Assembly: GCA_022827945.1 (NCBI GenBank)
Contig: JAJEIT010000010.1
Span: 1 to 39,903 of the forward strand
DNA length: 39,903 nucleotides
Direction: 5' to 3'
Origin: Dehalococcoidia bacterium
GTDB taxonomy: Bacteria; Chloroflexota; Dehalococcoidia; Tepidiformales; Tepidiformaceae
In this document: positions 5,883-12,742 of the stretch, piece after piece
How the letters are laid out: every line of letters begins with the position of its first letter
Position numbering within the stretch: position 1 is the stretch's first letter
Program-made: the position numbers and the translations under genes
Notes under the pieces: generated by a model
Seen by the model: only the letters and a program-made list of their open reading frames with translations
What the model was told of the DNA's origin: nothing
The model's database searches: none

Positions 5883-5915
5883 TCCGGACCCTTTGCGGAC
5901 GCGCCGCAGTCTGGC

Positions 5916-5921
5916 TACCGT
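5916..5921 (+). promoter_or_regulatory. Possible promoter of the PPOX-fold gene at 5948
   Basis: The -10 TACCGT is 17 bases after TTGCGG at 5893-5898. Transcription would begin near 5928, leaving a short leader that holds AAGGAGG. Confidence 0.4.
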
Positions 5922-5935
5922 ACGCGCCTGATTTC

Positions 5936-5942
5936 AAGGAGG
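5936..5942 (+). promoter_or_regulatory. Strong ribosome binding site fixing a GTG start
   Basis: AAGGAGG lies five bases before GTG at 5948. It would be 17 bases from the alternative ATG at 5960, so the GTG is preferred. Confidence 0.75.
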
Positions 5943-5947
5943 TTCCC

Positions 5948-6541
5948 GTGCCCGAAGGTATGCGCGACCACGAGGTCGTTTCCGTCTATCCCTACAGCGA
6001 TGAGCAGATCGACCAGCTCATGAACGACGCCAGCGAGTGCATCCTCATGTGGGGCACCAAGGACGGCTGGCCCGTCGGCGTCTACCACTCCTTCGTCTGG
6101 AGGGACGGCAAGTTCTGGATCACCTGCGCGGCGCACCGCCACCGCGTCGCCGCCATCCGTCGCGACGGCCGTGTTTCGGTGGCCGTCAGCGGCATCTCCG
6201 CGAAGAGCCCCGACTCCCCCCGCGGCGCCGCCACGGCCAAGTGCCGCGCCATCGTCCGCGAGGACCAGGAGACCAAGGACTGGTTCTATCGCGCCCTCGC
6301 ACACAAGGCGAACCCCGACGACAAGGCCGCCGAGGACGACTTCGTCGAGCGCCTCGACTCGCCTCTGCGCATCATCATCGAGGCCACCCCCGAGAAGTGG
6401 ATCACGTTCGACAGCGCCAAGTCCGGCAAGGACGTCGCGGGCACCCTCACCGACGAGGAGCGCGGCCCGCGCCTCGAGTCCGACGCTGTCCGCATGCGCG
6501 CCGAGCGCGAACGTCGCGGCCTCGACCCCGACGCCCGCTAG
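5948..6541 (+). CDS. Pyridoxamine 5'-phosphate oxidase-fold flavoprotein
   Basis: 197 residues. The order of elements fits the split-barrel FMN/F420-binding fold: an N-terminal helix (DEQIDQLMNDAS), a strand ILMWGTKDGWPVGVYHSFVW, then FWITCAAHRHRVAAIRRDGR, the flavin-phosphate contact region of such proteins, and a strand VSVAVSG. A charged C-terminal helix RMRAERERRGLDPDAR ends the protein. Members use FMN, F420 or heme to reduce or oxidise small molecules in the cytoplasm. The gene follows the SDR by 65 bases and converges on the P450 with only 12 bases between stops. The substrate and the choice between FMN and F420 are not visible. Confidence 0.75.
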   Translation: MPEGMRDHEVVSVYPYSDEQIDQLMNDASECILMWGTKDGWPVGVYHSFVWRDGKFWITCAAHRHRVAAIRRDGRVSVAVSGISAKSPDSPRGAATAKCRAIVREDQETKDWFYRALAHKANPDDKAAEDDFVERLDSPLRIIIEATPEKWITFDSAKSGKDVAGTLTDEERGPRLESDAVRMRAERERRGLDPDAR

Positions 6542-9634: not shown

Positions 9635-9671
9635 ACCGACCACCGGCCACCGATCACCAACCACCGGTCAC
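9635..9671. repeat. Five-copy heptamer tandem repeat, consensus ACCGRYC
   Basis: Reading from 9635 the units are ACCGACC, ACCGGCC, ACCGATC, ACCAACC and ACCGGTC, followed by AC. The array ends on the stop codon of the minus-strand PPOX gene, so it would form its 3' untranslated region. There are no spacers, so it is not CRISPR. Confidence 0.7.
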
Positions 9672-10114
9672 TAGCGATTCTTCTGAACGTGCTCCCGTCG
9701 GTCCGCCGACGAGCTCCAGGTCAGGATTCGCGTCGGCTTGTACGACACCACCACGCGATCCGGCGTGTTGGCGATGTGCTCGTAGCTGCTCTCCCAGTTG
9801 TCGCCGCCGTACTTGCGCGCGATTGTCTCCGTCACCGTCCCCAGCCCGGGTGTGATCGTGCAGGACTCTGCCGCCAGCACCACTGTGCGCTGGTCCGGGT
9901 CGCCCGGCTCGTCGACGCAGATCGAGACGCGCCCGTCGCGCTCCAGGTTGCGCGTCTTCAGGCGCGGCGCCGTCGTACTGAAGTAGACCGTCCCGTCCTC
10001 CCAGTGAAACCAGATCGGAGTCAGCTGGGGAAACCCGTCCGGGTTGACGGTCGCCACGATCGCGTTCCGCGGCTCGGCCAGGAACGCATCCATCTCCTCG
10101 CGGGACATCGGCAT
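9671..10114 (-). CDS. PPOX-class probable flavin/F420-dependent protein
   Basis: 147 residues from the ATG at 10114. A longer frame starts at 10138, but GGAGG (complement of 10123-10127) lies eight bases before the 10114 ATG, which decides the start. The split-barrel signature is clear: RNAIVATVNPDGFPQLTPIW, then VYFSTTAPRLKTRNLERDGR with the basic residues that contact the cofactor phosphate, then VSICVDE. This arrangement resembles the small F420- or FMN-binding PPOX proteins common in Actinobacteria and Chloroflexota. It stands alone, separated by 134 bases from the SDR operon and divergent from the ATPase gene. Confidence 0.85.
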   Translation of the reverse strand: MPMSREEMDAFLAEPRNAIVATVNPDGFPQLTPIWFHWEDGTVYFSTTAPRLKTRNLERDGRVSICVDEPGDPDQRTVVLAAESCTITPGLGTVTETIARKYGGDNWESSYEHIANTPDRVVVSYKPTRILTWSSSADRREHVQKNR

Positions 10115-10278
10115 CAGAACCACCTCCAGGGCCCCCATCGGGCCGCGCGCAAGTGTAGCGCGGGTCGTTGAATCAAGCCGCCAACATGCGTGCTCCAGCC
10201 TCAGTCAAGAGAGATGGCTGCCTAACCACTCTGTCGCTTGCGGGAAGAACGCCTTACGCTCGAACTGGAGCATCCACG

Positions 10279-11616
10279 ATGGAAACCCTGATCCTTGAGG
10301 ACTTTCGCTGCTTCGCTGGCAGGATGGAAGTGCCGGTGCGTCCCCTGACAGTCTTGGTCGGGGAGAACAGCACCGGCAAGACTTCCTTTCTCGCTGCCGC
10401 GAGGGCGGCCCACGATGCTCTTTTCCGAGCAGTACCGGACTTCAATGAGGACCCGTTCCGGCTTGGTAGCTATGACCAAATCGCAAACTACCGTCGGGGT
10501 CGCGCCAAGAGCTTCGTCGTCGGGCAGGAATTCACAACGGTATCTCCCCGCGTCTTCCGTACCGGTCGAAGCGCTCAAGGGCAGACAGTGCGGGTAGAGC
10601 CAGGCACGGCCCGGGAGACTACGCGGCTAGAGACGCGCTTTCATGCGTCAAAGTCTCAACCTGCAATCTCGTCCGTTACTGCTTCGCGGGGTGCATACAA
10701 ACTGAGCGCGGCCTTTGAAGGTGGCAAATCCCAGCTCTCGTTCTTGGTCAATGGGGAAGTTGTGAGTCGGCGCGAGACCGACATGAGTCTCGACGAGAGC
10801 GCCCTCGTTGCCGGAGGGCTCCAGTTCATATTCTATCGGGGCCAGTATGAGGCGCAGCGAACCGGAGAAGAAGATGAGCCGTGGGCGGAACACGAAGAGC
10901 ATTTTGACTCGCTGGCAAGCACGATAGCCTTCTTGCGAGGCCCCCGGCCCTATGCGTTTGCACCAATCCGCACCAGCCCACAGCGAACGTACGATCCCAC
11001 CACCGAAATTCGCGATGCTGAAGGAAGCCACATACCCATGATGCTGCAACGCCTTCTTGACAGCGACGATGTTGGGGAATTCCGGGGCCGCCTTGAAGAG
11101 TTTGGGGAGGCCAGTGGCCTCTATTCCACTCTGCGAGTGCGAAAACTTGGCAGGCGTGAGAGCAACCCGTTCCAGGTCGAAGTCAAACACCCAAAGGGGG
11201 GACGGGCTCGGAACCTTGTTGACGTCGGCTACGGAGTGAGTCAGGCCATCCCCATTATCGCCGATTGTGTATCTGCGGAGCCTGACTCCACGCTATTGAT
11301 TCAGCAACCAGAGGTACATCTCCACCCCCGGGCACAAGCAGCGATGGGGTCGTTCTTCGCTCAATTAGCAGAGAGCAGGCGGAACAGGGTTATTGTCGAG
11401 ACCCACAGCGACTACCTCCTGGATCGAATCCGTATTGATGTGCGAGAGGAGAAGATAAGCTGCGGCGATGTGAGCATCCTCTACTTCGAGCAGAGGCGTG
11501 ATGGAGTGAGGATTCACTCCATACAACTCGATGCGGCGGGCAACCTGATAGATGTTCCCGATGGATACAGGCGCTTCTTCCTTGAGGAGCAGCGCCGCTT
11601 CTTGGGCATCGACTAG
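10279..11616 (+). CDS. ABC/OLD-like ATPase (DUF3696-type), probable conflict-system motor
   Basis: 445 residues from the ATG at 10279, chosen because GGAG stands eight bases upstream and the protein then opens as the family does (METLILEDFRCFAG). The P-loop GENSTGKT is at 28-35. A signature-like loop VGYGVSQAIP precedes the Walker B region LLIQQPEVHLHP (339-350), and a His switch VETHSD is at 373-378. These are hallmarks of RecF/SMC-like ABC ATPases such as those of OLD, PtuA and AriA systems. Base composition is visibly lower in GC than its neighbours: one row (10441-10500) counts 53%, against 67% for 13441-13500. Two bases after its stop comes a PIN-like gene. Inference: a nucleic-acid-sensing ATPase that controls the nuclease. 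Confidence 0.85.
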   Translation: METLILEDFRCFAGRMEVPVRPLTVLVGENSTGKTSFLAAARAAHDALFRAVPDFNEDPFRLGSYDQIANYRRGRAKSFVVGQEFTTVSPRVFRTGRSAQGQTVRVEPGTARETTRLETRFHASKSQPAISSVTASRGAYKLSAAFEGGKSQLSFLVNGEVVSRRETDMSLDESALVAGGLQFIFYRGQYEAQRTGEEDEPWAEHEEHFDSLASTIAFLRGPRPYAFAPIRTSPQRTYDPTTEIRDAEGSHIPMMLQRLLDSDDVGEFRGRLEEFGEASGLYSTLRVRKLGRRESNPFQVEVKHPKGGRARNLVDVGYGVSQAIPIIADCVSAEPDSTLLIQQPEVHLHPRAQAAMGSFFAQLAESRRNRVIVETHSDYLLDRIRIDVREEKISCGDVSILYFEQRRDGVRIHSIQLDAAGNLIDVPDGYRRFFLEEQRRFLGID

Positions 11617-11618
11617 CT

Positions 11619-12074
11619 GTGTGCGCCATTGTCGACGCTAACATGGCAGGGAGGTTCTTTGGGGTTCCCGACACCGAACTGTTGCCGCTGTGGAAGTGGG
11701 TCGACGATGGGAAGGCAGCCTTGGTTGTAGGTGGGCGCCTAACCGAGGAACTTAGCAGGTACAGCGGTGCTGCGGACCAGATTCAGAAGTGGCAGCAGGC
11801 TGGTCTTGTTCACCGAGAGGTTGCTGGGGATGTCGAGGTCGAGAGTCGCAAGATCGAAGAGGATTGCACTTCGAATGACTCCCACATCGTTGCCCTTGCC
11901 AGACTGTCAGGTGCGCGACTGCTTTGCTCCAGCGACAAAGCTCTACACAGTGACTTCCGTGACAGCAACTTGGTCAACCACCCTCGAGGGGCGATCTACC
12001 AAGACAGCAGCCACACGCACCTCCTCCGTCATGAGGGACGGTGTGCGCTGAGGGGCCGGAAGCGGAGCCGCTGA
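11619..12074 (+). CDS. PIN-like nuclease, partner of the upstream ATPase
   Basis: 151 residues from a GTG two bases after the ATPase stop, so translation is probably coupled. The acidic residues of a PIN fold are in the expected order: D6 in IVDAN, E43/E44 in RLTEEL, D87 in SNDSHIVALA and D106 in LLCSSDKAL. The block ARLSGARLLCSSDKAL is very like the third and fourth acidic motifs of PIN RNases. PIN proteins cleave single-stranded RNA with Mg or Mn and serve as VapC toxins or as effectors. No VapB-like antitoxin gene is nearby; the ATPase is the only partner. The last 25 residues are basic and have no clear family match. Composition matches the ATPase rather than the flanks. Confidence 0.75.
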   Translation: MCAIVDANMAGRFFGVPDTELLPLWKWVDDGKAALVVGGRLTEELSRYSGAADQIQKWQQAGLVHREVAGDVEVESRKIEEDCTSNDSHIVALARLSGARLLCSSDKALHSDFRDSNLVNHPRGAIYQDSSHTHLLRHEGRCALRGRKRSR

Positions 12075-12105
12075 CCCTCCTCATTCAGCACGGCGCTCTC
12101 CTCGC

Positions 12106-12657
12106 CTACCCCACCGGCTGCTTCGGGAACTCGTAGACAGGCGGCTTGCCGCCACGCTTCGCCTTGCTCGCCGGTAGCGACTCCGTCCGCTTCGTCCACT
12201 GGTCCGGCGACCAGCCCCAGTTGCTGATGATGCGGTAGTGCGAGATCCGCCACTTGTCGCCGTCCGGCACGAACGTCCCCTGGTACAGGCCCCCGCCCAG
12301 GCCGCCATGGCCGCCCGACGTCATGAAGTAGGCGCTCAGCTCCGCGCTCGAGCAGTCCTCCGCCACGTTCACCTGCACGTTCGCCGAGTGGTGCCCGCCC
12401 GAGAGCGTCGGCTCCGCGCTCGAGTGCGGCCCGTACAGCTCCCGCATCGCCTCACGGCCCTCGAACCGGAGGTCGTCCATCGTCCCCGGCGGGAAGTTGA
12501 TGACCTCCAGCAGCGCGTCCTCGTGGAACACGTCGAGGATCCCGTCCGTGTACCCGATATCCATGTTGTAGAAGTACTCGTTGAAGGTGCTGATCACCGC
12601 TCGCTCCGCCTCCAGGCGGGCGACCCGTGCGCGCAGTTCCGCAAGCTCGTCCGACAT
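12106..12657 (-). CDS. SnoaL/NTF2-like polyketide-cyclase-fold protein
   Basis: 183 residues from the ATG at 12657, preceded by GGAG at nine bases. A short coiled-coil helix (ELAELRARVARLEAERAV) leads into the cone-shaped NTF2 fold: an N-terminal helix ending in NEYFYNMDIGYTDG, DVFHEDALLEV, a segment GREAMRELYG, and the closing strand DKWRISHYRIISNWGW. Members include polyketide cyclases, ketosteroid isomerase relatives and dioxygenase beta subunits, as well as many of unknown function. No catalytic residues could be assigned. The gene is divergent from the second P450, sharing a 148-base upstream region, which hints at joint control of a common pathway. Confidence 0.8.
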   Translation of the reverse strand: MSDELAELRARVARLEAERAVISTFNEYFYNMDIGYTDGILDVFHEDALLEVINFPPGTMDDLRFEGREAMRELYGPHSSAEPTLSGGHHSANVQVNVAEDCSSAELSAYFMTSGGHGGLGGGLYQGTFVPDGDKWRISHYRIISNWGWSPDQWTKRTESLPASKAKRGGKPPVYEFPKQPVG

Positions 12658-12742
12658 CGCGATTCGCTCCTGTTTCTGGTTGTCGGGGGAGGATGGACCG
12701 CCCGCAGACCCTTCGCAAGGCCCCCGCTCCTGACGCCCTGCG

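Follow-up and report, generated by a model that had tools for sequence, protein, structure and literature searches.

A horizontally acquired gene pair encoding an SMC/OLD-like ATPase and a PIN-fold protein: a candidate immunity module in a Dehalococcoidia bacterium

What might an ABC-type ATPase and a small PIN-like protein do together, encoded side by side in a block of DNA whose composition differs from that of its surroundings? The question is raised by two genes in the window analysed here, a stretch of 39,903 nucleotides from a Dehalococcoidia bacterium. A sequence-only reading of the window had placed the two reading frames next to each other, and an ORF check recovered both in the same positions, with a 2 bp gap between the ATPase stop and the GTG of the PIN gene (Table 1). 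The low GC content that it had remarked upon is also real: the pair is at 0.585 compared with 0.694 in the remainder of the window, and equal-size flanking windows in the 40 kb are all at least 0.650. Nor is there an antitoxin gene beside the pair, both adjoining genes being minus-strand genes that are conserved in the genus. The reading that we favour, with reasonable rather than high confidence, is that the pair is a horizontally acquired immunity module of two genes, in which a PIN RNase gated by the ATPase would halt translation upon infection.

Table 1. Positions in the window of the gene pair, its predicted catalytic residues and its insertion site
Feature	Position	Strand	Evidence or remark
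Left border gene of the hotspot	9671..10138	-	In all nine genus genomes
Acquired cassette	10165..12092	+	Inserted in DNA that is otherwise collinear within the genus (blastn, eight same-genus genomes)
SMC/OLD-like ABC ATPase, 445 aa	10279..11616	+	ATG start; Pfam, alignment, AF2 model
Walker A GENSTGKTS, K34	10360..10386	+	G33/K34 invariant in 16 members
Walker B TLLIQQPE, E345	11290..11313	+	E345 invariant in 16
His switch H376 (ETHSD)	11404..11406	+	Invariant in 16
PIN-fold nuclease, 151 aa, proposed effector	11619..12074	+	GTG start; AF2 model, 17-row alignment
Predicted catalytic acid D6	11634..11636	+	17/17
Predicted catalytic acid E44	11748..11750	+	17/17
Predicted catalytic acid D87	11877..11879	+	16/17, G in L014
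Predicted catalytic acid D106	11934..11936	+	17/17
Right border gene of the hotspot	12106..12660	-	In all nine genus genomes

The low-GC block that carries the two genes is horizontally acquired DNA, a cassette of 1.93 kb, and the pair is absent from all eight same-genus genomes (ATPase query, 60 related genomes). In the six closest siblings, blastn homology (90-93% identity) runs up to 10163-10166 and resumes from 12092-12093; in G004 and G008 (75-86%) it breaks further out, at 10113-10114 and 12122-12130. The border genes, of which, from their translations, the left looks like a pyridoxamine-oxidase/F420-type protein and the right looks SnoaL-like, neighbour each other in 9/9 genus genomes. 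The spot between them is near-empty in five siblings, with 113-187 bp in G002, G005, G007 and G008 and 330 bp in G004, where a short protein could be encoded. In G006 the spot is occupied by one gene in which an N6/N4 methyltransferase is fused to an Mrr-type restriction domain, and G001 and G003 have a gene for a LuxR-type HTH protein with a large C-terminal part. Within the genus, this interval (10138-12106 in the window, L050-L057 in the siblings) is a hotspot of exchange. Given the gene in G006, a restriction gene is one of three kinds of cargo found at the spot, besides the empty state; the LuxR-type gene has no known defence role and is present in two of the eight siblings, so that the hotspot is not exclusively defensive. 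Three of the near-empty spacers (L053, L054 and L055) are made up for the most part of short palindromic repeats (CTCAGCnnCGCGnCAGCGnnGCGCTC-like), a repeat type that is absent from the window; these repeats may flag the site of insertion or favour insertion there. A search of the junction stretches for direct repeats marking the end of a mobile element found none, and inverted repeats there were limited to two pairs, both at the left end. A consensus scan for promoters and terminators gave no match above chance.

Outside the genus, the two genes are found together. ATPase and PIN are adjacent, in the same order, at 20 of the 20 loci with both sides visible, the window included, and these loci come from Chloroflexota, Planctomycetota and Pseudomonadota; a twenty-first locus, L082, was left out of the count because a contig end cuts it. 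The outcome is the same with either gene as query: a PIN gene lies directly downstream at every close relative of the ATPase (L012-L021), and an ATPase gene directly upstream at every testable relative of the PIN protein (L006-L011 and L079-L081). The sequence-only reading had been ready to give way if the homologues did not co-occur, or if they were limited to close relatives among syntenic housekeeping genes; instead they keep company in several phyla. Where both ends can be read in the gene tables, the two genes overlap by 1 bp at one extreme and are 16 bp apart at the other, and the distances among the ATPases are correlated with those among the PIN proteins (Mantel r 0.85, p 5e-5, 16 pairs). 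ATPase and PIN are one conserved two-gene unit, obligately paired. The distant ATPases L022-L024 gave no match to the family PIN model.

Relatives are rare and widely scattered. Scanning genome contigs with a pattern made from the window ATPase as a single sequence yielded no confirmed relative, and the ATPase query against the 60 related genomes yielded one, in G012 (47% identity), on the same contig that the PIN query reached by itself. A two-row ATPase alignment recovered 13 loci from a bacterial and archaeal genome collection, comprising the ten close relatives and the three distant ones. A PIN profile added six further genomes in the host phylum, where the pair is present in 7/400 genomes, and a Planctomycetota sample contained it in 6/392, four of them new and two already known; the frequency is approximately 2% of sampled genomes. 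The ATPase tree intermixes Chloroflexota, Planctomycetota and Pseudomonadota, and in 11/11 loci tested the GC content of the pair is below that of its flanks. The two genes are transferred together, as one cassette, among unrelated bacteria. Plasmids searched by tblastn with the window proteins gave no match, and with the relatives as queries matches were confined to three Aeromonas records, which share one and the same HEC-03-type ATPase. The phages searched contained partial ATPase matches only, none covering 80% of the query, and the E. coli genomes searched with the Pseudomonadales pair contained none.

The P-loop, signature-like loop, Walker B and His switch read from the window ATPase are all present and are invariant in the 16 aligned members, the signature as DVGYG.SQ (S321) and the Walker B in the context QQPEVHLHP. 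A family motif, AP.R..P.RTY, is also invariant across the 16. Pfam identified AAA_21 (2e-20) and AAA_15 (3e-20); DUF3696, which had been suggested for this protein, stayed below threshold (14.9 against a cut-off of 22). The sequence matches stop at the core and a weak DUF3696-like tail, and the C-terminus lies about 70 aa past the His switch. No Pfam match to a Toprim domain was obtained on the ATPase chain, so that the PIN partner would have to supply whatever nuclease activity the pair has. The AF2 model reaches a moderate pLDDT of 75, with a weak central region; its structural matches include SMC and Rad50 heads, at Z up to 20.3, and PtuA from Septu and retron systems, at Z 16-17.6. Among PADLOC models the ATPase matched NsnB (1e-46), PDC-M55A (8e-34), HEC-03B as third best (3e-28) and AriA (7e-23). 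By its sequence the protein is kin to defence ATPases, and we propose it as the sensor or holder subunit of the pair. Two of the systems matched were considered as identifications and rejected. Menshen, to which NsnB and the best ATPase score belong, involves a DUF262 protein and an OLD-type nuclease (PMC10952713). The B protein model of PDC-M55 has 315 positions and matched one of 151 genomes, so that the B protein is not the window PIN.

For the second protein, a PDB sequence search with the PIN profile returned nothing meaningful, and a fold comparison was therefore needed. At the level of HMM searches the PIN assignment is supported by the family rather than by the window protein: alone, the latter has a sub-threshold Pfam PIN match (E 0.037), while PF01850 is matched with an E-value of 0.01 or below by seven of the 17 aligned members (1.8e-6 for the strongest). 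The AlphaFold model, built from an 11-row alignment, has a pLDDT of 89.9 and a PIN/VapC fold. Its best structural match is the VapC 5x3t (Z 11.1, rmsd 2.5 Å, 117 residues); VapC20, which cuts the sarcin-ricin loop, scores Z 9.8, and other RNA-cutting PINs are also among the closest solved folds. The acidic residues picked out from the sequence alone are conserved at D6, D87 and D106 and, of the adjoining E43 and E44, at E44 and not at E43. H89 and Y127 are likewise invariant in the family alignment. As modelled, the protein is a PIN fold that retains an intact acidic pocket, in keeping with the initial assignment. One member departs from this pattern: in L014 (Phycisphaerae, 5901-6365) the PIN frame runs on in frame past the ATPase stop, there is no usual start codon ahead of the first Asp, and D87 is replaced by Gly. 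Decay of this copy, or fusion by readthrough, is the probable explanation.

We propose that the ATPase, itself lacking a nuclease domain, most probably forms a complex with the PIN protein and keeps it inactive. Upon infection, an ATP-dependent rearrangement would activate or release the PIN RNase, the RNase would cut tRNA or ribosomal RNA so that translation stops, and the infected cell would arrest or die ahead of phage release. Complex formation, a trigger by infection, an RNA target and phage resistance are properties that we infer for the pair, and we are less sure of tRNA or rRNA as the exact target than of the module as a whole. The proposed mechanism follows that of PARIS (AriA/AriB) and Septu (PtuA/PtuB), but the nuclease here has a fold unrelated to theirs. 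In PARIS, a hexameric ring of the ABC ATPase AriA sequesters the small tRNase AriB (PMC12409363), and phage proteins trigger the tRNase (PMC12409363; PMC11455837). The window pair likewise has a separate, AriA-like ATPase (7e-23) and a small nuclease encoded alongside, although AriB is a Toprim/DUF4435 nuclease and the window partner has a PIN fold. PtuAB of Septu and retron-Eco7 cleaves tRNA-Tyr, and Septu needs ATPase and nuclease both (PMC11555353; PMC13096335); here too a PtuA-like ATPase fold is combined with a nuclease as a separate protein, but PtuB is an HNH nuclease, whereas the window pair has PIN and no retron. The sequence-only reading had presented a PIN effector as an RNase-based version of such systems. 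The PIN partner stands, but RNase action as the distinction does not: Septu/retron-Eco7 and PARIS are themselves tRNases (PMC13096335; PMC11555353; PMC12409363), and the contrast is therefore one of nuclease fold. A PIN nuclease without an antitoxin gene also has precedents as a validated anti-phage effector in DS-3 and DS-5, in which the PIN ribonuclease is essential to phage defence. DS-3 is one protein, DS-5 pairs with a DUF5830/AcrIF4-like protein, and in the passages on them no ABC ATPase partner is described for either (PMC13092281). With PARIS, PtuAB and DS-3/DS-5 as precedents, an ATPase-gated PIN RNase is the most economical reading. Two further systems with such ATPases are built differently: an OLD nuclease carries a C-terminal Toprim on the ATPase chain, which the window ATPase lacks, and Gabija consists of GajA with Toprim and the UvrD-like GajB, whereas the window pair has neither Toprim nor an adjoining helicase gene.

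The genomic settings of the relatives give a mixed picture. Most stand alone among ordinary-looking genes, identified by reading their translations (ruvC/ruvA/ruvB, rpsB/tsf, topA, methionine synthase and others), and no recognisable defence gene is present in the few kb visible at L012, L014, L015, L017-L021 and L025-L028. Residence in defence islands, which had been suggested as a check, is therefore the exception, found in a few cases: at L029 (2740-4531) a low-GC gene for a CAP12/Pycsar-type TIR effector begins about 170 bp after the pair, and at L016 type I restriction and methylation genes lie 3.6 kb from it. The insertion site of the window pair holds a restriction gene in one sibling, G006. 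In three genomes of one genus (L026-L028) the pair is kept at one fixed chromosomal site, with 69-70% identity between the ATPases and 57-67% between the PIN proteins, compared with 79-93% for six neighbouring genes. Where vertically kept, the pair diverges faster than most of its neighbours; the neighbours CPBP and RdgB (69-76%) diverge about as much as the ATPase, which counts against this argument. It is from the hotspot cargo, the TIR and type I restriction genes beside two relatives, the kinship of the ATPase and the fast evolution that we infer a defensive role for the pair. Against such a role, PIN proteins may also act as housekeeping enzymes that cut DNA or process RNA.

One alternative explanation, which we consider unlikely, is that the cassette is a selfish unit of the toxin-antitoxin type, with a VapC-type PIN toxin and an ATPase that serves as a mere antitoxin, senses nothing and persists by addiction. 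This would be consistent with the VapC-like fold, with a solitary cassette of its own composition and with the position of most copies outside defence islands. However, the catalytic motifs of the ATPase are all invariant in 16 members, which would be needless for a mere antitoxin; and VapBC, whose VapC shares its fold and acidic residues with the window PIN, has a VapB-type antitoxin, whereas the only conserved partner of the window PIN is the ATPase. Since the PARIS ATPase can be holder and sensor at once (PMC12409363), addiction is better regarded as a limiting case of an ATPase-gated module than as its opposite. Another possibility, distinctly improbable in our view, is a defence module whose PIN protein cuts invading DNA, as a flap or single-strand nuclease, and not RNA. 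PIN-like folds do include the FEN/5' nucleases, which speaks for it. Related ATPase systems such as Gabija also cut DNA (PMC10568477), but the closest solved folds of the window PIN are VapC-type RNases, including VapC20, and other RNA-cutting PINs, and the PIN effectors of defence systems have been described as ribonucleases (PMC13092281). Least probable is a pair for RNA or DNA maintenance outside conflict (RNA quality control, or a flap/repair nuclease with a RecF/Rad50-like ATPase), to which the SMC/Rad50-like ATPase fold and the fixed site in L026-L028 would be suited, but which is hard to square with a rare and patchy distribution, absence from all same-genus genomes, low GC and the mixing of phyla in the ATPase tree.

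An ATPase-gated PIN RNase would add a PIN ribonuclease to the nucleases paired with SMC/OLD-type ATPases; whether the ATPase serves these systems as a shared sensing chassis, onto which effectors can be swapped, could then be put to a clean natural test. Spreading as an isolated 1.9-kb cassette among housekeeping genes, this defence-like unit occupies settings that guilt-by-association searches miss, and in this genus both an empty site and an exchange hotspot are available to work with. More tentatively, and with rather more doubt than conviction, the family could be an undescribed immune family in which an infection-sensing ATPase sets a VapC-like PIN ribonuclease loose on tRNA or rRNA; PIN would then be a third interchangeable nuclease on one ATPase chassis, next to Toprim (PARIS) and HNH (Septu).

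The pairing itself, which had been set against the known conflict systems, has a precedent in the PADLOC candidate HEC-03 (HEC-03A and HEC-03B), the nearest known system in architecture, which belongs to the 'Hma-embedded candidates' (preprint of Payne et al., 2024, as cited in PMC12988326). Gene order is identical, an ATPase followed by a short PIN-like protein; HEC-03A carries a PIN-like D..E..D..D pattern, as the window family does, and in the eleven HEC-03A genomes fetched 11 of the 12 places have an ATPase gene immediately upstream. The families nevertheless differ. The HEC-03A model misses the window PIN (E up to 1) and five other members tested, none of the PADLOC models matches the window PIN, and a profile comparison of HEC-03A with the window PIN family gave a weak alignment (E 6e-4, probability 28%). 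Each has conserved features of its own, GQPGVGD, FDxSDRKFVAVA and DTDW in HEC-03A and MC.I.DAN, SNDPH.LALA.SGARLL and PRG..Y in the window PIN family. In the ATPase tree a 100/100 branch of length 3.4 splits the two groups, and the window ATPase falls outside the HEC-03B clade. The window family is therefore a distinct, unlisted ATPase-PIN clade beside HEC-03, familiar in its logic and not categorically new. On the more tentative reading of an undescribed immune family, PADLOC would have missed it for two reasons: the PIN differs from HEC-03A, and the lone two-gene cassette travels mostly outside defence islands.

The host genome also contains a second, HEC-03-like pair (G000:C75, 73580 region; L002 1044-2778, L031 9126-15194), with 25% and 21% identity to the window ATPase and PIN, respectively. 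It groups with HEC-03 in the ATPase tree, and its PIN protein matches HEC-03A weakly (4e-5). A CBASS-type oligonucleotide cyclase (PADLOC 250 bits) lies about 3.5 kb away, accompanied by a gene of the DUF7002 family and by a short ORF that corresponds to part of a type III methyltransferase model. On an Aeromonas veronii plasmid (NZ_AP022291.1; L083 3989-6617), an HEC-03 ATPase gene and a PIN-like gene are immediately followed by a gene annotated as an RNA ligase family protein; such a cut-and-reseal combination would fit an RNA target for the HEC-03 PINs.
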